Virus record (IMG/VR): IMGVR_UViG_3300037808_000005 | Span: 1-32,099 of that record | Strand: one strand, 5' to 3' | DNA length: 32,099 bases | From: a virus | Part shown: piece after piece, positions 16,473-24,947 of the stretch | Position numbering within the stretch: position 1 is the first letter of the stretch | Layout: every line of letters begins with the position of its first letter | Made by a program: the position numbers and the translations under genes | Notes under the pieces: model-generated | What the model saw: only the letters and a program-made list of their open reading frames with translations | Databases searched by the model: none | What the model was told of the DNA's origin: nothing

Positions 16473-16503
16473 TAAAAAAAATGCCACCGATTAAAGTGGC
16501 ATT
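16473..16503 (-). terminator. Intrinsic terminator at the left end of the early operon
   Basis: AATGCCAC and GTGGCATT (16480-16487 and 16496-16503) form an eight-pair stem with an eight-base loop. On the minus strand it is followed by eight T residues (16473-16480) and then ATTT. The T-run exists only in the leftward direction. It separates the early operon (from 23588 and 17189) from the late leftward genes, so it is a likely control point for antitermination. Confidence 0.85.
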
Positions 16504-16540: not shown

Positions 16541-16639
16541 CTAGCTCTCCGATTTTACTACAAAATTCTCTACGAGGCAAGCAATTAATCCAAACAATCC
16601 AATTGCTGAAAAGACATCAAATAGAAATTGAAATTCCAT
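16541..16639 (-). CDS. 32-residue single-pass membrane peptide
   Basis: Reads MEFQFLFDVFSAIGLFGLIACL... and ends VKSES. Almost the whole chain is one membrane helix. Its ATG overlaps the TAA of the upstream gene (TAATG). Just past its stop, CTAGAC and GTCCTAG (16526-16531, 16538-16544) can pair with one bulge, ahead of the main terminator. The function is unknown. Confidence 0.45.
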   Translation of the reverse strand: MEFQFLFDVFSAIGLFGLIACLVENFVVKSES

Positions 16640-17028
16640 TATGCCACCTCCTTTTTTTCAAAAAGTAATCCTTTTAATTCCTCTGGTTTAACATCTAGCA
16701 CTTTAGTGTCATAACCATTGATGTAGTAAACTCGTTTACTTTTAGACTCAATAATAATGTCGCCTTTGCTAATACTAGCTAGACCTTGCTCTGGATTATC
16801 TATAACAATGTCAATTTGAGGATGGTTGTTACGATCAATGTCCTCGTTACCAAGTGTTATTACTTCAAGTAAACTACCAACTTCAAAGTCAGCAACATGG
16901 TCATAGTCATGTATTAAAATGTCATTGTTTAAATGTCTAGCGTGTCTTGCAACAGCATCATGACCTTTTTCGTTAATTAAATCTACTTCTGCATCTGTTA
17001 AGCTAATTTGTAAAATGTGATATTTCAT
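16639..17028 (-). CDS. Hypothetical early protein
   Basis: 129 residues with AAAGGAGAT ideally spaced before the ATG. Acidic and soluble. It opens 'MKYHILQISLTDAEVDLINEKGHDAVARHARHLN' (part), which looks like an alpha/beta fold, and the middle has 'VGSLLEVITLGNEDI' and 'ISKGDIIIESKSKRVYYINGYD'. I recognise no motif. It ends the early operon with two smaller coupled genes. Confidence 0.65.
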   Translation of the reverse strand: MKYHILQISLTDAEVDLINEKGHDAVARHARHLNNDILIHDYDHVADFEVGSLLEVITLGNEDIDRNNHPQIDIVIDNPEQGLASISKGDIIIESKSKRVYYINGYDTKVLDVKPEELKGLLFEKKEVA

Positions 17029-17189
17029 TATTTATCTCCTTTGGTTTTTTTTAATATTAAATTAAGATTGCTATTCATACCTCTTAATTGGTCAAAACTA
17101 TTTACAGCATCAATATGGCTATAATGAACGCTAATTACATAATAGTCGTTGCCTTTTCTACCTCTGTTTATAATTTTATATTCTTCCAT
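17028..17189 (-). CDS. 53-residue protein, first gene of the second leftward unit
   Basis: Reads MEEYKIINRGRKGNDYYVISVHY... and ends KKTKGDK. It has AAAGGAG spaced seven bases before the ATG, and its stop overlaps the next start (TAATG). Basic, with no membrane segment. It directly follows an operator-like palindrome and shares a 24-base leader with the gene at 23588, so it is probably expressed from its own regulated promoter. Confidence 0.65.
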   Translation of the reverse strand: MEEYKIINRGRKGNDYYVISVHYSHIDAVNSFDQLRGMNSNLNLILKKTKGDK

Positions 17190-17262
17190 TTTGTTTCTCC
17201 TTTGTTGTTTGTGCCTTAATTATCCTCTTTTTAGATAAATGTGCAAGTAATTTGCAGATTAA
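17187..17262 (-). promoter_or_regulatory. Second leftward promoter/operator with shared leader
   Basis: The palindrome TGCAA-GTAAT-TTGCA lies at 17242-17256. On the minus strand TTGCAC is followed, 16 bases later, by GATAAT, a plausible sigma70 pair that overlaps the palindrome at its -35. The leader at 17187-17210 is identical over 24 bases to 23586-23609. Together these suggest co-regulated leftward transcription units. Confidence 0.55.
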
Positions 17263-17290
17263 TTACACCTTTATTGATTTGTTTTACTTA

Positions 17291-17614
17291 TCACGAAAGA
17301 TCAACAATTTTGGAGGTGTATCTGCCATTCTTTTCTTTCTTCCACCCCTCTACTAAAATAGTCCACCCTGCATCTCGTAGGAAAGGCAAGGCAGGACTTT
17401 CTGTAATTTTCTTTACCCTAGCACTAATGTTGCTATAACTTGTCACCTGAATGGCTATGGTGTCACTTTTGTGTATTGCAAGGATGTCAATAATACCGAA
17501 CAAGTCTTGCCTTATTCTTGCAAAAGGATTCCAGCGTTCAGTAATTGCTACCAAATCATAGTTTTCTTTTCTTAACCTAGCTAAAGTTCTCATGGTAGGA
17601 CTAGTCTTTGCCAT
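17291..17614 (-). CDS. PD-(D/E)xK-like protein (resolvase/VRR-NUC-like, atypical)
   Basis: 107 residues from the ATG at 17614, which has GGA eight bases upstream and overlaps the upstream gene. The core reads 'RIRQDLFGIIDILAI' followed by 'TIAIQVTS', that is, Asp37 and Asp43, a beta strand, then Q-V-T where nucleases have (D/E)-x-K. 'ARVKKI' and a C-terminal 'LVEGWKK' follow. The arrangement resembles small phage Holliday-junction or VRR-type nucleases. The usual Glu/Lys pair is replaced, so activity is uncertain and a binding-only role is possible. Confidence 0.6.
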   Translation of the reverse strand: MAKTSPTMRTLARLRKENYDLVAITERWNPFARIRQDLFGIIDILAIHKSDTIAIQVTSYSNISARVKKITESPALPFLRDAGWTILVEGWKKEKNGRYTSKIVDLS

Positions 17615-17798
17615 TGTTTTTTTCCAGTAAGTTTCCGTAGCCATCATCATCACCTTCATCTTCGGGAGATAATTTTTTCTTTCTAATTTCCTCTATAGCT
17701 TTTTCATACTTTTTTTTTGAAATAAATATTCTATCCCAAGCATCTTGTAACTGTTTATCTGTTATTTCTTGTTTTCTTCTGCTGCTTCCTTTACTCAT
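17601..17798 (-). CDS. Small basic early protein
   Basis: 65 residues from the ATG at 17798, chosen because AGGAGG sits six to eight bases upstream; a longer version from 17828 lacks such a site. Highly charged: 'KGSSRRKQEITDKQLQDAW', then a KKK-rich helix, then an acidic 'SPEDEGDDDGYG'. It overlaps its neighbours on both sides by 8-14 bases. No family is recognised. Confidence 0.6.
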   Translation of the reverse strand: MSKGSSRRKQEITDKQLQDAWDRIFISKKKYEKAIEEIRKKKLSPEDEGDDDGYGNLLEKNNGKD

Positions 17799-18072
17799 TA
17801 CAATCCCTCCTAAATTTACATATTTCATGTTTATCGTAATATCTAATGCTGTTGGTTTTCATGTCTATGTTTTTAATTTGTGTACCTTTTGGCAAATAAA
17901 TATATTCTTTTTGCAAACATTTGTATTCCATTTCAACTTTATTTGGGTCTGGATAATGTAGGCTTAAAAAAATAGAGCCTTCTTGGCAACTGCGAAAGTT
18001 TCCAATATACTCCCAATCTTGCAAAGGGTCTGGTGCTAGATTAATTACCATTACAAATGCAAACTCAATCAT
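17791..18072 (-). CDS. Hypothetical protein with four cysteines, maybe exported
   Basis: 93 residues with GGAGG seven bases before the ATG. The N terminus 'MIEFAFVMVINLAPDP' is a short hydrophobic run that could be a weak signal or just a strand. Cysteines occur in 'FRSCQEG', 'YKCLQKE', 'EICKF' and 'RDCNE', and an even count fits disulphides or a metal site. It follows the Ref-like gene by two bases. The function is unknown. Confidence 0.6.
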   Translation of the reverse strand: MIEFAFVMVINLAPDPLQDWEYIGNFRSCQEGSIFLSLHYPDPNKVEMEYKCLQKEYIYLPKGTQIKNIDMKTNSIRYYDKHEICKFRRDCNE

Positions 18073-18074
18073 AA

Positions 18075-18371
18075 TTATTCCTCCAATTTATTAAGTACCC
18101 ATTCTAAAAGTTCTGCTTCTGTTCCATATTTTTCTTGCCAAGTCTTTGGTGCATGATGAAATCCATCCTGACCCTGATGATGTTCCCAGCAAAGTGGCAG
18201 CACCATGTAGTGACTATTCTTTTGTCCCATCCCCATACCTTGTCGGATATGGTGGCAGTTGGCAGGTAATGGGTCATCTATTTCATAATGCTTACGACAA
18301 ATAACACAACCAAAGTTAGATAATTTATTAAGCCAATTTTTTTCGTCTTTAGTTTTAGATTTTTTTTTCAT
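18075..18371 (-). CDS. Ref-like HNH nuclease (RecA-dependent nuclease family)
   Basis: 98 residues with GGAG before the ATG. The Cys/His layout is C22-x2-C25, 'CHHIRQGMG' (H40, H41), 'HYMVLPLC' (C61), 'EHHQGQDGFHH' (H64, H65, H72) and 'YGTEAELL'. This matches the P1 Ref family of HNH-type nucleases that cut DNA at RecA-made displacement loops. Zinc-binding cysteines and the catalytic histidines are all present. Its operon includes ERF, YqaJ and NinB, so it likely acts in recombination-dependent replication. Confidence 0.82.
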   Translation of the reverse strand: MKKKSKTKDEKNWLNKLSNFGCVICRKHYEIDDPLPANCHHIRQGMGMGQKNSHYMVLPLCWEHHQGQDGFHHAPKTWQEKYGTEAELLEWVLNKLEE

Positions 18372-19211
18372 TTAATCTCCACAAAAACAGGCTATACCTT
18401 CTTCGTCTTTATCAAACATATCTTGTTGGTTTATAGCATACTCTTTCATTTTTTTATAACTAGGTCTGTCTAGTCTAAACATATGCCCTTGTCCTAAAGA
18501 TTTGTCAGTTTTAATTTTTGCAACATCTTCCATTTTTATCCACCAATCTGCACGACTTGGTTTTTCTTGTATTAAACTTTGTACTTGATGTGCTGGTTTT
18601 AAAAAACACAGATCACAATTTCCGTGCATAGTTCTACCATTCATGTTTGGTAACTTCAAATCAAAATTATTTTTTTTCCAAAACTTACTAATATCTTTTA
18701 CAGAAATATTATCTGCTACAAGAGGTATCCTATGTGGCTCTATTTTTGATGCTCTTCTATGCTCATCTGCTCTTATTCCAATCCAAGCATCTCTCTCTGT
18801 TATTTTCATACCTATTGATTTACAATATTTTGCTATTACCCTAATCTTTAATTCAATAGAACAAAATCTAGCAACAGGATTTGGTAGCATAGTTTTATTG
18901 TTTAATAATTCTTCAAACGGCTCACCATTGCGACTGGCTGTATTAAAATCTACAATTTTATATCTATCTTTAGTTTCTTCTCCCCATACATATTCTAACC
19001 ATGTAATAGGAACATTCCATTTCTCACCACAATCCCTAACAAACTCTAGTGTAGCTTCTTCTTCTTTTCCTGTGTTTGTAAAACATACAATGGCATCTTC
19101 TGGCAACTTACCACCATTAGATTGCAATACTCTCCACAACATATAAGCAGATGTTCGCCCACCACTAAAAGCTATAACTGTTGGTTCTATAATTTTAAAT
19201 GGATCATTCAT
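18372..19211 (-). CDS. PAPS-reductase-like PP-loop ATPase (CysH/DndC superfamily)
   Basis: 279 residues. The PP-loop 'SGGRTS' lies at 16-21, with 'CFTNTGKE' near 43-50 and 'GIRADEHRR' near 145-153. These are the nucleotide-binding features of adenylyl-pyrophosphatase enzymes that activate sulfur or other groups. Cysteines are placed at 'RFCS' (117), 'NCDLC' (199/202) and the C terminus 'CFCGD' (275/277), a set that could hold an Fe-S cluster. Many phages carry this family beside DNA-modification or recombination genes. The substrate cannot be read from sequence; true sulfate assimilation, DNA thiolation and RNA thiolation are all open. Confidence 0.82.
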   Translation of the reverse strand: MNDPFKIIEPTVIAFSGGRTSAYMLWRVLQSNGGKLPEDAIVCFTNTGKEEEATLEFVRDCGEKWNVPITWLEYVWGEETKDRYKIVDFNTASRNGEPFEELLNNKTMLPNPVARFCSIELKIRVIAKYCKSIGMKITERDAWIGIRADEHRRASKIEPHRIPLVADNISVKDISKFWKKNNFDLKLPNMNGRTMHGNCDLCFLKPAHQVQSLIQEKPSRADWWIKMEDVAKIKTDKSLGQGHMFRLDRPSYKKMKEYAINQQDMFDKDEEGIACFCGD

Positions 19212-19573
19212 ATTTCTTCCTCGCCAAGTTTGAATCCATATCCTCTCGCAAACTCTTTAACTTTTTCTAAATACTCGTTAAATTGTTTTACATTTAATTT
19301 AGTGGTGCTGCCAACAGTCATTACTTTTAAATTTTTAATCTGCTTTTCTTTAGAAAGTAATTTGTATAATAGCACTTCGTGCATTTCATCTTTAGACTTT
19401 AGTCCAAAGTAATTTGCAAGTTCTGCTACTAACCGCCAATAGTAGTCGTTCTGATCCAATGATCTTGTAGACTTGTATGGCTTAACTGTTACCGACCACA
19501 GCTTATCTTGGTCTAATTCTTTTAGCTTACCAACTAAACCATCTAAATTATTTTTGTTTAATGTAAAGTTCAT
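19208..19573 (-). CDS. ninB: NinB-like recombination protein
   Basis: 121 residues with GAGG before the ATG and a four-base overlap with the next gene. The motif 'WSVTVKPYKSTRSLDQNDYYWRLVAELANYFG' (26-58, in parts) followed by 'KDEMHEVLLYKLL' is the NinB signature. Lambda NinB (Orf) is a recombination mediator that binds SSB and ssDNA and loads annealing proteins. The same operon holds ERF and an SSB-like protein, the expected partners. Confidence 0.83.
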   Translation of the reverse strand: MNFTLNKNNLDGLVGKLKELDQDKLWSVTVKPYKSTRSLDQNDYYWRLVAELANYFGLKSKDEMHEVLLYKLLSKEKQIKNLKVMTVGSTTKLNVKQFNEYLEKVKEFARGYGFKLGEEEI

Positions 19574-19902
19574 ACAACACCTCGCATTTTTTTAATTAAT
19601 CCTTGTAACTTTTCTGATATTTCTTTTCTTTTTTCTGGACTCAAGGGTTTAAATGGTAATTTTTTTGTTGCCATCACATCTAAACTTTTCTGTCTACAAA
19701 GCAATATGATGTCATAGGGAGTTGGTGCTTTGTTGCTACTTGTAGTCCAACTATCAAATGCCTTGCTTACCACAGAAATATCATAGCTCTGTAATTTCAT
19801 CCACCAGACCCTTAACAAGTTTTGATCTGCATGAGTCCTATTGTAAATATCAAAGACTGTGTTTAGCATTTCTTTAAATTTAATTTTGTCATCGTTATTC
19901 AA
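19570..19902 (-). CDS. Helicase-loader-like protein, TTG start
   Basis: 110 residues from TTG at 19902. AGGAGGT lies seven bases upstream, and the TTGA overlaps the previous stop, which fixes the start; a longer ATG version at 19935 lacks a site and runs into the initiator gene. The helical pattern 'FKEMLNTVFDIYNRTHADQNLLRVWWMKLQSYDISVVSKAFDSW' (in parts) and 'APTPYDIILLC' resembles G39P-type loaders that place replicative helicase at origins. It directly follows the O-like initiator. No helicase gene is visible here, so the host DnaB is the likely client. Confidence 0.7.
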   Translation of the reverse strand: MNNDDKIKFKEMLNTVFDIYNRTHADQNLLRVWWMKLQSYDISVVSKAFDSWTTSSNKAPTPYDIILLCRQKSLDVMATKKLPFKPLSPEKRKEISEKLQGLIKKMRGVV

Positions 19903-20483
19903 AATGTTACCTCCTCTGTAGGCTCGTCTAACCATCTTTTCTGATTAATGTAGGTAGTAGGGTTTGGTATATAAGTTCCATTGTCCTTAAACCATTGCTT
20001 ACTTTCTTTTTGCCAAGTTAAAGTTTTTATTACATCTTCAACATTTGGTTTATGTTTAACCCACGCTTCTTCAGCTTTACCCTTACCAACTTTTCTTGGG
20101 TAAGTATTCCAAAACAAATCAAACCCATTATCTACCTCTTTCTCTTTCTCTAACTCTTTCTCTACTCTTACTCTTACTCTAGGCAACCGAGTCGGCAACA
20201 CTTCGGCAACATCTTGTAAAACAAATGATGCCAACTGTTCTATCTGTTTGTTAATAAAAGATTTATCCTTTCTTAATCTAAAAGATATTTCATTAATATC
20301 TGGTAATTTACCCTCATTTTCTGATGCTAATAACCACAACTCTATTAAAGTTGCTTTGTTGCTATCAGTTAAATTGCTCCAATCAAAATCATCTAGTAAT
20401 TTTCTGTAAAGTTTGATCCAAATAACATTTCTATCTGACCTCAATGGTGGCTGAAATTCTTGCCAATTTTTTATTTTGTACAT
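19899..20483 (-). CDS. Replication initiation protein, O-like
   Basis: 194 residues with AAAGGAGAT before the ATG. Residues 1-85 form a winged-helix type domain ('VIWIKLYRKLLDDFDW', 'LPDINEISFRLRKDKSFINKQIEQL'). A charged linker 'RVRVRVEKELEKEKEVDN' (about 102-119) joins it to a C-terminal helical domain 'LFWNTYPRKVGKGKAEEAW' ending 'YIPNPTTYINQKRWLDEP', which is the usual tail of phage O-type and DnaD-like initiators. It is coupled to the loader-like gene. It probably opens the phage origin, which may lie in its own linker DNA. Confidence 0.82.
   Translation of the reverse strand: MYKIKNWQEFQPPLRSDRNVIWIKLYRKLLDDFDWSNLTDSNKATLIELWLLASENEGKLPDINEISFRLRKDKSFINKQIEQLASFVLQDVAEVLPTRLPRVRVRVEKELEKEKEVDNGFDLFWNTYPRKVGKGKAEEAWVKHKPNVEDVIKTLTWQKESKQWFKDNGTYIPNPTTYINQKRWLDEPTEEVTF
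20134..20182 (-). repeat. Purine-repeat tract inside the initiator gene (candidate origin)
   Basis: About 48 bases built from six-base units: on the minus strand AGAGTA appears three times, then GAGAAA/GAGTTA units. The tract is nearly all purine on one strand and encodes the RVRVRVEKELEKEKE linker. Lambdoid origins lie in the middle of the O gene as repeats, so the place is suggestive. Low-complexity charged linkers can also create such DNA without an origin function. Confidence 0.35.
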
Positions 20484-20504
20484 TACATCTCCTTTGTCTT
20501 TGTT

Positions 20505-20720
20505 TTAAACCACTTCTGCTTTGCAAGTCATTACAACCTTTCTTTTGCTTGGTCGCTTATAAGTTCCTAGCTTTGCCTGTAATACTATAGTCCTAACCTT
20601 TGGTAACTCTTTATCAGGATTCTTTTTGTACTGATATACCATTTGGTGTGTACACTCCAGTGCTTCTGCTAATGCCTTTGCATCACCATCTAATAATTTA
20701 ATTGCTTCGTTGTAAGTCAT
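20505..20720 (-). CDS. Cro-like transcriptional regulator
   Basis: 71 residues with AAAGGAAAA before the ATG. The start 'MTYNEAIKLLDGDAKALAEALECTHQMVYQYKKNPDKELPKVRTIVLQAKLGT' (in parts) has the Cro pattern: a helix, then a helix-turn-helix 'AKALAEALECTHQMVYQYKK' at about 14-33, then a Pro-rich turn. The tail is basic. Family members bind short palindromic operators as dimers. The TGCAA-N5-TTGCA sites at 23629 and 17242 are obvious candidate targets. No CI-type partner is visible. Confidence 0.72.
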   Translation of the reverse strand: MTYNEAIKLLDGDAKALAEALECTHQMVYQYKKNPDKELPKVRTIVLQAKLGTYKRPSKRKVVMTCKAEVV

Positions 20721-20730
20721 TTGTTTTCCT

Positions 20731-20859
20731 TTAGTGAGGTAAACATAATTTAACTCCCTTGTTAATTAATAAATAAAAAATATACATCCAACATATTATA
20801 GATACAGCTCCCATCATAATGAGAGCTAGACCTAGTGCTATGCTAAAAAGGGATGTCAT
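20731..20859 (-). CDS. 42-residue membrane protein
   Basis: Reads MTSLFSIALGLALIMMGAV... with a hydrophobic stretch from residue 4 to 31 (one long or two short helices) and a tail of INKGVKLCLPH. GAGG lies nine bases before the ATG. It overlaps the SSB-like gene end by 17 bases and fills an otherwise empty gap before the Cro-like gene. The function is unknown. Confidence 0.5.
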   Translation of the reverse strand: MTSLFSIALGLALIMMGAVSIICWMYIFYLLINKGVKLCLPH

Positions 20860-21157
20860 CACTTAAATCCTCAAAACTTTCAACTTGTAATGAGCTAGTG
20901 TTTTCCTTTGGTTTGTTTTGCTTTGACTCACCCTGAAAAAATACTTTAGAGTTGCCAAGTATTACTCCACGAGTTCCTGCTTCTCGTTCTTCTTTTGATA
21001 CAGACTGTGTAATCATTCCGTTATTACCAAATTTATCTTGGTTATCTGTATCAACAAAAGCAGTCACATCTAAATAAGTACCTTCTGTTCCTTTATATAA
21101 TTTAGATTTATCAATTTTTGCTACATTAATTTTTAAAGTTACTCCTATTACTGCCAT
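20843..21157 (-). CDS. Single-stranded DNA-binding protein (SSB-like)
   Basis: 104 residues with AGGAGA before the ATG. An OB-fold-like opening 'VTLKINVAKIDKSKLYKGTEGTYLDVTAFVD' is followed by 'DKFGNNGMITQSVSKEEREAG' and 'VILGNSKVFF'. It ends in 'DLSDDIPF', the acidic tip with terminal Phe that SSB proteins use to recruit partners. It is shorter than cellular SSB. The operon has ERF, YqaJ and NinB, all known to work with SSB. Confidence 0.8.
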   Translation of the reverse strand: MAVIGVTLKINVAKIDKSKLYKGTEGTYLDVTAFVDTDNQDKFGNNGMITQSVSKEEREAGTRGVILGNSKVFFQGESKQNKPKENTSSLQVESFEDLSDDIPF

Positions 21158-21158
21158 G

Positions 21159-21935
21159 TTATTTTCTCCTAGTTAAATAAATATAATCTGTCTTGCTGTT
21201 AAAGTTGTAAATCTCCTCTATGGTTGCTAAATATATTGGTGCGTTAAGTTTATGTTGCAGCATATGCGAACAATACTTTAATTTTTTAATAAATGTTGCA
21301 TGGTTATAATCTGCATTTTGAAATAAAATTAACATAGCTTTGTTAAAAGCTCTACGATTCCATCCATTGTAATATGGTTTTATCTGCAACATCTTTTCAG
21401 CATTTTTCTTTGCTAGTGTTACGCTTTTAATTTTAAAGTTACCATGTTTAAAATCGTTTTTTTCTGCACGATCTATACTTGGTTTATTTAAAAGTAAACC
21501 CATCGTTGTTTGTAATGAAAATTTATATTCTTTTATAAAATGTTTAAGAATTAAATAATCATCAAAATCCCTTTCACAAAACATATTTAAATAATCTTCG
21601 CCTTTCCAATCTTTTGTGTTTGTGTTTAATCTTTGAACATCACCAATTCCACCATCAATAATTAAGTAATGAATAGGCAAGTTTAATTGTTCTGCTGCCG
21701 CAAATCTGTGTTGCCCATCAATAATTTCCATATCTTTATTAACCAAAATAGGTTGCGGTAGATACTTTTCTTTCATAGATTTTACTAAATTTTTTACATG
21801 AGAATTATTAAGTATCCTATTACCTCTCATTCTTTTAAATATTTCATAGTCATAGGTTATTAATATTTTACCCTCCTTACTTTTCGGTATACTGCGTAAC
21901 ATACTGCTACTAATTGTTTGATTTAAAAAATTCAT
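21159..21935 (-). CDS. ParB/sulfiredoxin-domain protein
   Basis: 258 residues with AAAGGAGTA before the ATG. Residues 25-100 hold a ParB-like nuclease/CTPase fold ('NRILNNSHVKNLVKSM', 'LPQPILVN', 'IIDGQHRFAAAEQL' at about 71-84). The remaining 150 residues are helical and basic with 'KPYYNGWNRRAFNKAMLILF'. There is no classic ParB partition partner here. Such stand-alone phage ParB-like proteins may bind DNA, act in recombination or inhibit host functions. It sits between YqaJ and the SSB-like gene. Confidence 0.78.
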   Translation of the reverse strand: MNFLNQTISSSMLRSIPKSKEGKILITYDYEIFKRMRGNRILNNSHVKNLVKSMKEKYLPQPILVNKDMEIIDGQHRFAAAEQLNLPIHYLIIDGGIGDVQRLNTNTKDWKGEDYLNMFCERDFDDYLILKHFIKEYKFSLQTTMGLLLNKPSIDRAEKNDFKHGNFKIKSVTLAKKNAEKMLQIKPYYNGWNRRAFNKAMLILFQNADYNHATFIKKLKYCSHMLQHKLNAPIYLATIEEIYNFNSKTDYIYLTRRK

Positions 21936-21946
21936 AATTTACTCCT

Positions 21947-22522
21947 TTAGTTAAAATTAAATACTGGTTTCCTCTTATAGCGAGGTGGTTCTTTATCGTC
22001 TGCTACATAAGACAAAAACTCTTTGGCTTTTGGTATGTACCAGTCAATAAATTCTTGATCGTATTGCACCAACTCCGTATGTAATTCCTCTGGAGTCCAT
22101 ACAACAAAATGTGCTGCAACTGCATTTTTATATCCATTTGCTTGTGCTACTAACATTTGTATCTGCATCTGTACCCAATACCTGTCAGGGATAGTCGGAT
22201 AAATTTTTTGGGAAAATGGACATTTTAATTCAACTACTAGCCCATTTAGAAAAAGGTCAGGAGTCCCTGCCACAGGTAAATCAGGATGAACTAAAAGCTT
22301 ATTACTACTTTCTCCTATTTCATTCATATGTTTTTCAAATGCTCTCAATCCAATTTCTTCGTGGTCATTCCCCCATTGGGTCATAATATTGCCTTCAAAG
22401 GGTTTTTCCCTAAATGTCTTTTCTCTCCATAGCTTTTGCCTTTCATAGACTGCACCCCATGCTTGAGATGCAGTTACAAGGTAATGCCTACGATTATCTT
22501 TAAGATGCTCGTTTAAGCTCAT
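21947..22522 (-). CDS. YqaJ-family 5'-3' exonuclease (lambda Exo-like)
   Basis: 191 residues. Catalytic-type residues are in the expected order: Glu near 56 ('WGNDHEEIGLRAFE'), Asp89 in 'GTPDLFLNG', and Glu98/Lys100 in 'VVELKCP'. The 'YWVQMQIQML' helix, Q118/Q120, is the YqaJ hallmark. Degradation of one strand provides ssDNA for the ERF annealing protein encoded directly upstream. It overlaps the ERF gene by 23 bases, which fits a two-component recombination system. Confidence 0.9.
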   Translation of the reverse strand: MSLNEHLKDNRRHYLVTASQAWGAVYERQKLWREKTFREKPFEGNIMTQWGNDHEEIGLRAFEKHMNEIGESSNKLLVHPDLPVAGTPDLFLNGLVVELKCPFSQKIYPTIPDRYWVQMQIQMLVAQANGYKNAVAAHFVVWTPEELHTELVQYDQEFIDWYIPKAKEFLSYVADDKEPPRYKRKPVFNFN

Positions 22523-23039
22523 TAGCGTAATCCCTCAATTCAGATTGTTGTACATCTGGTAATTCAAAAAATGCTTGTTTGAGTGCACCAACTGCATGAG
22601 CTTCTTCTAAAGTTTCTTTTGCTTTCTTTAGTTCGGCTTGTGTAGATGGCTTGTTAACAGCACTGTTGTCTTTGCTGTCTGCATCTTTTGTATCATCCAG
22701 AAGTAAAAGGTTTCCTAATGCATACTTCTTTGCATAACTGCTGCTAGATCCAAAACTCTGACTGATATCCATACCTTTACGAGTTGGATTAATACCTGCC
22801 TGTGCTTTGACACTAATAGCATTTTCACCTATCTGAAATACTGCGGTTGCTTCTACATACATATAATTACCTACCTCTTTAACTTCGTCAGTAATTAATA
22901 ACAATGCATTGTGTTTAGCTAGTAAAGGTTTTACAGCCTCTAAAATATCTTCTGCACTTCGGTAATTATAATTGCCAAATTTATTTAACTGCCCTTTTGG
23001 TGCTTTAAGCTCTTGCTGAATTTCCATTAATTCTTTCAT
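22500..23039 (-). CDS. erf: ERF-family single-strand annealing protein
   Basis: 179 residues with AAAGGAGAT before the ATG. 'LKAPKGQLNKFGNYNYRSAEDILEAVKPLL' (10-40, in parts) and 'GMDISQSFGSSSSYAKKYALGNLLLLDDTKDAD' near 90-125 are signatures of P22 ERF-like proteins, which anneal complementary ssDNA in recombination. The C-terminal 60 residues are helical and variable, as usual. It is paired with YqaJ and near NinB and SSB-like genes. Confidence 0.9.
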   Translation of the reverse strand: MKELMEIQQELKAPKGQLNKFGNYNYRSAEDILEAVKPLLAKHNALLLITDEVKEVGNYMYVEATAVFQIGENAISVKAQAGINPTRKGMDISQSFGSSSSYAKKYALGNLLLLDDTKDADSKDNSAVNKPSTQAELKKAKETLEEAHAVGALKQAFFELPDVQQSELRDYANELKRAS

Positions 23040-23204
23040 TTATATCTCCTTTGTTTGTGATGCCATAATTAATTCTTGATAGGCATCAGGGTTAAGTTGC
23101 TTAATTAAACCTAGAACTGAATTTGCTCCAGAGTCTAGTACAATTTCTGCAAAATTACTAATTGCAAAATGTTGATTAGCTTCTTCCATTATTTTTTGTT
23201 CCAT
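23040..23204 (-). CDS. Small early protein, 54 residues
   Basis: Reads MEQKIMEEANQHFAISNFAE... and ends MASQTKEI, with AAAGGAGAATT before the ATG. Soluble, helical and acidic. It lies between the first early gene and ERF with short gaps, so it is part of the operon. No family is recognised. Confidence 0.65.
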   Translation of the reverse strand: MEQKIMEEANQHFAISNFAEIVLDSGANSVLGLIKQLNPDAYQELIMASQTKEI

Positions 23205-23222
23205 TTTAATTCTCCTTTGTTA

Positions 23223-23588
23223 TTAATATCTTTCATCCCAAACACCAGTTTCTTTGTCGTAGATCCAGTTGTCAGGATTATCTTGGTACTCTTTTGCTTC
23301 AGCTTCAGCATCTCGTCTTTCTTCTGCTTCTTCTATAGCTGTGTCTGCTATAGATTGAAAGTCTATTCTGTTACTAAAGTCATAAAGCTGAAAAGATGTT
23401 AGTTTATCTTCAACCTCATCAAACCATGCATCTTTTATTTCAGTAGCTACACTTTTAGCATCTGGGTACATTAGCTCTTTAGTTTTAGTCATAAACTTTT
23501 CAGACTTCCAAGTATAGTCATCTGCTATTTCAGCTATGATGTCTAGTCCTATTAAGTTAGCGATTGTTTTGTTGTCTGTTAGTATCAT
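23223..23588 (-). CDS. First gene of the leftward early operon, unknown function
   Basis: 121 residues with AAAGGAGAAA before the ATG. Acidic and helical with a long charged stretch 'TAIEEAEERRDAEAEAKEYQ' and a C terminus 'NWIYDKETGVWDERY'. No motif is recognised. First-gene position directly after the divergent promoter region suggests high early expression; host-takeover or regulatory proteins are common there. That role is only inferred. Confidence 0.7.
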   Translation of the reverse strand: MILTDNKTIANLIGLDIIAEIADDYTWKSEKFMTKTKELMYPDAKSVATEIKDAWFDEVEDKLTSFQLYDFSNRIDFQSIADTAIEEAEERRDAEAEAKEYQDNPDNWIYDKETGVWDERY

Positions 23589-23617
23589 TTTGTTTCTCCT
23601 TTGTTGTTTATATTTCT

Positions 23618-23645
23618 ATATTACACTATTGCAAGTGAGTTGCAA
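23618..23645 (-). promoter_or_regulatory. Leftward early promoter with operator
   Basis: On the minus strand TTGCAA (23640-23645) and TAATAT (23618-23623) are 16 bases apart, a plausible sigma70 pair. The -35 is one half of the palindrome TTGCAA-GTGAG-TTGCAA (23629-23645), so a repressor bound there would block it. It drives the early operon starting at 23588. Confidence 0.6.
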
Positions 23646-23652
23646 CAATTAT

Positions 23653-23681
23653 TTGCACAAGTAACTTAATTAATTTATACT
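23653..23681 (+). promoter_or_regulatory. Rightward early promoter
   Basis: TTGCAC (23653-23658) and TATACT (23676-23681) are exactly 17 bases apart, a strong sigma70 match. The -35 starts eight bases after the operator palindrome and contains another TGCA core. Predicted transcripts start near 23688 and lead into the gene at 23722. Confidence 0.65.
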
Positions 23682-23721
23682 TCTGGTTATAGTGTTATTT
23701 CACACTCACAAAGGAGTTGTT

Positions 23722-23952
23722 ATGAGAGTTATTTTATTGATGTTGTTAAGCGGTAGTTTGAGTGCCGAAAGTGTTTGGACTGATGATGGATCTTTGGTTA
23801 TTATTGATGCGCCAGATTCAATTGTGTATATAGATAATGAGGGTTCAGTAAATTATGATGTTGAAGTATCTGATAATGAATCAACATTTATTTATGGAAC
23901 TGATAAATTAACAGTTTGTCAGCCTACTGCAAATGGTAGTATTTGTTACTAA
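23722..23952 (+). CDS. Small exported protein, first gene of the rightward operon
   Basis: 76 residues from the ATG at 23722, which has AAAGGAG five bases upstream. A start ten codons earlier has none. Signal peptide MRVILLMLLSGSLSA precedes an acidic mature part of about 61 residues with two cysteines ('LTVCQPT', 'GSICY') likely to pair. The repeated 'D-N-E-G/S' stretches suggest a small beta domain. A secreted phage protein expressed early could act at the cell envelope, for example in exclusion of other phages. That is speculation. Confidence 0.7.
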   Translation: MRVILLMLLSGSLSAESVWTDDGSLVIIDAPDSIVYIDNEGSVNYDVEVSDNESTFIYGTDKLTVCQPTANGSICY

Positions 23953-24404: not shown

Positions 24405-24528
24405 AAACGAATGGAAGGAACATAAATTTGTTTGGGAGGGTTATACATATTTTATAATGAGCAAGGACAAAGAATTTCATATTGTTCATGAACCTACAGG
24501 AAAGATTGTTACAAAGGGGGAGTTATGA
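24370..24528 (+). CDS. Small basic protein, 52 residues
   Basis: Reads MTKGKETLKKNKNEWKEHKF... and ends IVTKGEL, with AAAAGGAG before the ATG. Rich in Lys, with a short beta-like part 'GYTYFIMSKDKEFHIVHE'. It overlaps both neighbours (ATGA with the winged-helix gene). No family is recognised. Confidence 0.6.
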   Translation: MTKGKETLKKNKNEWKEHKFVWEGYTYFIMSKDKEFHIVHEPTGKIVTKGEL

Positions 24529-24947
24529 AATATGAAAAATTAAAAAATCAAACTAATCTACATTGGTATAATTTAAAAGATGGCAGGAAATTACAAAGAT
24601 TTCAAATATCAGAAATGATTTATGCTTTGTTTGATGGAGGAAAGGAATTGACTATTCAAGATGTAGCAGAAAATGTTGGAATAGAAGAAACTACATCAGC
24701 TCATATTATTAGAAGTTTATGTATTAAAGATTTATTAGTAAGAAGAAAAACTCAAAGAAACACTGTATATTCCAAGAAGATTGATTGTGCATTAGCTACA
24801 ATGTTTTACCCAAAAGAAATACTAGACAACTTCAAAGTTAAAAGTAAAAAATCTCATAAGATGGATGATGGAAAAAATGTTTCATACCCACAAGCTACCC
24901 CTCATATGTATGGATGTGTAAACACTATTTATGAAGGTGGTGAGTGA
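24525..24947 (+). CDS. Winged-helix DNA-binding protein (probable)
   Basis: 140 residues with GGGGGAG just before the ATG. The middle reads 'ISEMIYALFDGGKELTIQDVAENVGIEETTSAHIIRSLCIKDLLVRRK' (in parts), with a helix, then a helix-turn-helix 'TIQDVAENVGIEETTSAHIIRSL', then a wing 'LLVRRKTQRNTVY'. This is the MarR/winged-helix layout. It likely regulates phage or host genes. It is followed by an antitermination-like gene. Confidence 0.65.
   Translation: MKYEKLKNQTNLHWYNLKDGRKLQRFQISEMIYALFDGGKELTIQDVAENVGIEETTSAHIIRSLCIKDLLVRRKTQRNTVYSKKIDCALATMFYPKEILDNFKVKSKKSHKMDDGKNVSYPQATPHMYGCVNTIYEGGE

Follow-up and report, generated by a model that had tools for sequence, protein, structure and literature searches.

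Operator control of the Cro type is an already known, ordinary kind of phage regulation. The P22/N15-type Cro proteins of phage P22 and the telomere phages N15, PY54, and phiKO2 are small single-domain HTH proteins of about 60–70 aa with palindromic sites that overlap promoters. The operators of phiKO2 are 16 bp long, and the Cro proteins of phiKO2 and PY54 bind only OR3, apparently not their own promoters (PMC4997575). The locus analyzed here lies in a 32,099-base IMG/VR virus record with 35% GC (the whole stretch is called the window below), and it resembles these systems in encoding a small single-domain HTH protein and in carrying palindromic sites, here predicted as operators, that overlap promoters. 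It differs in its operator arms (TGCAA-N5-TTGCA), in the position of cro within a recombination/replication operon, and in that no CI/CB gene or immunity region was recognized; in contrast to the Cro proteins of phiKO2 and PY54, the one described here is proposed to repress its own operon. A lambdoid CI/Cro immunity switch has a CI-type repressor gene divergent from cro and several shared operators in between; the locus is unlike such a switch, with one strong site per promoter and neither a CI-type repressor nor an integrase recognized among the scanned proteins of the window, which is a fragment. Lambda CII-dependent promoters contain a TTGC-N6-TTGC direct repeat, and they share with the present sites TTGC repeats that lie close to the -35 and are spaced by roughly one helical turn.

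The closest cultured relative that we found by DNA is the Methylophilales phage Venkman EXVC282S (MT375522), whose terminase, capsid, and other genes align with those of the window at ~53–86% protein identity. It differs in having another HTH protein, gp19, as its Cro/CI-family member, and the TGCAA-N5-TTGCA dyad was not found in it. The phage studied here is probably marine and a member of a group related to a phage of marine methylotrophs. A literature search found no description of the regulon reported below.

Paired Dyads and Leaders in the Window

The original prediction placed a near-palindrome ahead of two leftward leaders. Perfect copies of TGCAA-N5-TTGCA occur exactly twice in the window, both at the leader-bearing promoters, and the dyad core is 15 bp long; positions of all features are given in Table 1. 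Shuffled windows contained a mean of 0.11 perfect dyads, and 6 of 400 shuffles had two or more, so that the pair by itself is only moderately unlikely by chance. The significance of the dyad comes from its conservation in relatives (see below), not from its count in the window. The dyad had also been expected to overlap a plausible -35, and it does so at both promoters, through the downstream arm at P_A and the upstream arm at P_B. We rejected an alternative P_B in which the downstream arm would be the -35 and TATAAA the -10, as it fails in three relatives (L013, L032, L064). The upstream arm is preferred because the -10 then reads TATAAT or TATACT in several relatives.

Table 1. Positions in the window of the predicted regulatory elements and of the genes around them.
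Feature	Position	Strand	Remarks
Candidate operator O_B, TTGCAAGTGAGTTGCAA	23629..23645	.	Core TGCAA-N5-TTGCA at 23630-23644; same position in 15/15 relatives' B promoters
Promoter P_B	23618..23645	-	-35 TTGCAA 23645-23640 (O_B upstream arm), N16, -10 TAATAT 23623-23618
Leader/ribosome site of gene B, 24-nt copy 1	23586..23609	-	Exact repeat
Gene B, first in recombination/replication operon	23223..23588	-	121 aa, acidic, net charge -17; no family match
Remainder of P_B operon	19208..23204	-	54-aa ORF, ERF annealase, YqaJ/RecE-like exonuclease, ParB-like, SSB-like, Cro-like, replication initiation-like, helicase loader-like, NinB
Cro-like protein, proposed repressor	20505..20720	-	71 aa; PHROG 409, E 5e-5; HTH helices at residues 14-21 and 25-33
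Candidate operator O_A, GTGCAAGTAATTTGCAG	17241..17257	.	Core at 17242-17256; kept in 10/11 type I A promoters
Promoter P_A	17219..17246	-	-35 TTGCAC 17246-17241 (O_A downstream arm), N16, -10 GATAAT 17224-17219
Leader/ribosome site of A unit, 24-nt copy 2	17187..17210	-	Exact repeat
First genes of A unit, 53-aa and 129-aa ORFs	16639..17189	-	Upstream of terminase and structural genes
Divergent rightward promoter	23653..23681	+	TTGCAC-N17-TATACT; in 11 distinct relatives; -35 begins 8 bp past the O_B end

The 24-base leader segment, CATTTTGTTTCTCCTTTGTTGTTT, has the same letters at both leftward operons, just as had been noted. Allowing up to three mismatches, a third copy lies at 23202-23224, at an internal start of the ORF at 23040-23204 (shuffles gave 0.01 matches). 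In many loci, AACAACAAAGGAG stands ahead of the gene that opens a unit, both with and without the dyad. The shared leader had been taken as a sign of co-regulation, a use that we dropped since the leader is found free of the dyad in L022–L024 and L027. For the same reason we treat it as an element apart from the operator, best read as a strong ribosome site on short leaders.

Conservation of the Dyad in Related Viral Contigs

Relatives were grouped by their Cro. In type I, Cro is 74–100% identical to that of the window and its gene is inside the operon read from B, whereas in type II it is 37–60% identical and usually encoded at the head of a divergent operon. Gene B was found on 13 viral contigs, each of which has the dyad 55–67 nt upstream of the gene B start. 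After further scans had extended the comparison to 15 homologous B promoters, the dyad was present in every one, as well as in 10 of 11 type I A promoters; the exception, in L032, reads TTGCAATCAACTTGTAC and has one arm mismatch. Across the B promoters the arms are constant and the five central bases drift (CTCAC, ATGGT, ACTGT, ATTAC, ATCAT, TATGT, TGCTT, TTAAG, and others). In L008, P_B has a third hexamer 11 bp on. Three relatives (L007, L049, L053) carry a third copy of dyad, promoter, and leader, which drives a gene whose product has an N-terminal ArdC domain. When 25 type I loci were scanned with a weight matrix, no further site scored at least 15 beyond the A, B, and third promoter copies; the matrix was trained on these very sites, so that part of its contrast with type II follows from the training. 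Absence of the palindrome upstream of the same genes in close relatives would have counted against the original prediction. Its presence there, at specific positions, supports the proposal that the two leftward units are co-regulated.

Promoter Geometry

At the B promoters, the best -10 is TAATAT, TAAAAT, TATACT, or TATAAT; in 14 loci it is separated from the upstream arm by N16, and L008 uses the second of its three hexamers. At A, the downstream arm serves as the -35, N16 from GATAAT or TATAAT, in all 10 promoters compared, and the third copy likewise uses the downstream arm, N17 from TATACT. Relative to the -10, the dyad therefore shifts by 11 bp, one helical turn, between A and B, and its center falls near -38 at A and near -27 at B. 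The conserved positions are dyad-symmetric (TGCAA/TTGCA) and include the arm that lies outside the -35. The dyad is thus a module separate from the core promoter, and because it slides while its conservation stays dyad-symmetric, we infer that a dimeric repressor is favored over an activator.

The self-complementarity of TTGCAA nevertheless means that each site can also be viewed as a direct repeat whose period is 11 bp, recalling the lambda CII sites. The second arm could then be an activator or RNA-polymerase-contact element through which the genes are switched on together, a reading that the third hexamer of L008 would fit. We regard it as unlikely. Activators usually need a fixed position, and here the dyad center moves; the spacing is TTGC-N7-TTGC rather than the N6 of CII-dependent promoters, the -35 coincides with one arm instead of lying between the repeats, and conservation follows the dyad, so that these are not promoters of the CII type. 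Promoter, dyad, and leader do recur as a module, also ahead of the ArdC-like gene, as they would if the repeats were remnants of a duplicated cassette with no regulatory role. This we consider extremely improbable, given that the arms are constant while the center and flanks diverge; the 11-bp offset of the dyad against the promoter between A and B also shows that the two are not plain copies of one cassette.

The Cro-Like Protein and the Distribution of the Dyad

Against Pfam P22_Cro, the Cro-like protein matched at E 0.011 with 15.9 bits, below the curated cut-off of 30.2. Its AlphaFold model (pLDDT 83) is a small single-domain HTH protein with helices at residues 3-9, 14-21, 25-33, and 41-51. 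Foldseek aligned the model with N15 Cro (2hin; TM 0.65 by target, 1.6 Å over 53 residues, prob 0.99, E 0.42) and with P22 Cro (1rzs; TM 0.71 by target), with E-values that are weak for so small a protein, the best being 0.26. Taken together, these matches indicate that the protein probably has the P22/N15 Cro fold. No dyad was found at the type I cro start; cro is transcribed from upstream.

We counted 17 copies of the dyad TGCAA-N5-TTGCA in 142 kb of type I loci and none in 217 kb of type II loci or in five whole type II records. The HTH recognition helix reads THQMVYQYKK throughout type I and is changed in type II. Type II A promoters (L037, L038, L039, L041, L079) keep the TTGCAN-N16 core and have lost the in-register second arm. 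Most type II loci instead have ATGC-N6-GCAT (approximately TGCAA-N2-TTGCA) some 33–35 nt before cro. In both layouts a dyad is thus found at the promoter that reads cro, in the N5 form at P_B in type I and in an N2-like form before cro in most of type II. The type I Cro proteins form a single clade (support 87/88), and the association between Cro and dyad therefore counts as one evolutionary change. The two layouts also differ in gene order, the g23204-ERF-EXO-SSB block being inverted between the groups (L037, L041, L039, L048, L052, and L060 against the window); with the inversion, the divergence point moves between cro in type II and gene B/R1 in the window. L022, L023, and L024 have yet another Cro lineage (37% identical), and there the promoter of the homologue of the 129-aa A protein has AAGTTG-N4-CAACTT overlapping TTGACA.

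Two other phage proteins could in principle read the dyad, which we judge improbable. The wHTH protein at 24525-24947 has weak winged-helix matches and is encoded in the adjacent divergent unit, but its distribution excludes it, as copies 93–100% identical to it occur in type II relatives free of the dyad. Gene B is found in every relative with the dyad at P_B and, by sequence search, is absent from all type II loci but L079 (a 32% match), so that its distribution matches the dyad nearly as perfectly as that of Cro. Its product, however, is strongly acidic and has no recognizable HTH or structural relative, and its sequence falls to ~46% identity while the dyad is unchanged. As the promoters are of sigma-70 type throughout, a host regulator might also bind the dyad, the phage having adopted a host operator. 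We think this very unlikely, since relatives that share much of the genome (wHTH up to 100% identical) and have a different Cro lack the dyad, and a host operator is not expected to follow the phage cro allele. Searches for host genomes, by contig scans with the Cro alignment and with terminase, found no relative. Because the dyad follows the Cro lineage rather than wHTH and lies at the promoter reading cro, the Cro-like protein, the candidate named in the original prediction, appears to be the best-placed regulator.

Gene Content Around the Sites

The moderate-confidence structure model of the gene B product gave no convincing structural match, and tblastn of this protein and the 129-aa A protein against GenBank phages returned zero matches. 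Gene B has conserved ends and a variable middle. Its acidic product might mimic DNA or inhibit a nuclease or restriction enzyme of the host. An unlisted small ORF at about 20715-20845 (-), located between cro and the gene for the SSB-like protein, encodes a membrane-like peptide, MTSLFSIALGLALIMMGAVSIICWMYIFYLLINKGVKLCLPH; similar stretches are present in L006, L010, L013, L034, and L035.

Leftward from 17189, small ORFs are followed by methyltransferase, terminase, portal, scaffold, and capsid genes. The first genes of the A unit differ among relatives. A terminator-like hairpin lies within the A stretch at 16480-16503, and the number of such hairpins is not above that in shuffles. P_A lies ahead of the terminase and structural genes, and transcription from it may read through into these late genes.

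The rightward unit from 23722 encodes DUF3310, wHTH, and weakly Q-like proteins. It is headed by R1, a 76-aa ORF (23722-23952, +) with a signal-peptide-like start; in type II, no dedicated promoter lies immediately upstream of R1. The leader of this unit contains a hairpin at 23691-23706 (+), AGTGT-TATTTC-ACACT, whose pairing is kept in relatives through two-sided changes (GTGT/ACAC, GCGT/ACGC, GTGC/GCAC), with A-U or G-U at the base. The hairpin may act in RNA.

A Proposed Cro Circuit

We consider it probable that Cro represses its own operon and co-represses unit A through TGCAA-N5-TTGCA. A P22/N15-type Cro-like dimer would sit over the -35 of both leftward sigma-70-type promoters and block RNA polymerase. 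P_B would transcribe gene B, the recombination/replication genes, and cro itself, giving negative autoregulation, and strong early transcription would be shut down as Cro accumulates. P_A, ahead of the terminase and structural genes, would be under the same control, and in some relatives the third operator-promoter-leader copy would add an ArdC-like anti-restriction gene. Cro binding, repression through that binding, and its timing are inferred here from promoter sequences and the co-distribution of dyad and Cro. As no CI-type repressor or integrase was recognized in the scanned proteins, the circuit looks like an early-gene shut-off rather than a lysis/lysogeny switch, with a Cro-like protein that seemingly acts without a CI partner.

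More tentatively, and with some doubt, we suggest that Cro and its operator were rewired together. A flip of the recombination block would have moved cro between the head of a divergent operon and the inside of another operon, in either direction, while the recognition helix changed and the operator switched between two forms, approximately TGCAA-N2-TTGCA where cro starts and TGCAA-N5-TTGCA at another promoter. Together with promoter and leader, the N5 form would also have reached the anti-restriction gene and the unit that precedes the terminase genes.

These results provide a testable regulatory circuit for a group of uncultured phages in which control of transcription is little known. Most interesting is that operator and Cro differ as a pair between types I and II. 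The relatives constitute a naturally varied set, comprising two spacings and several recognition helices, in which the evolution of repressor specificity can be studied. If true, the co-rewiring would document in nature how a repressor and its regulon change together.
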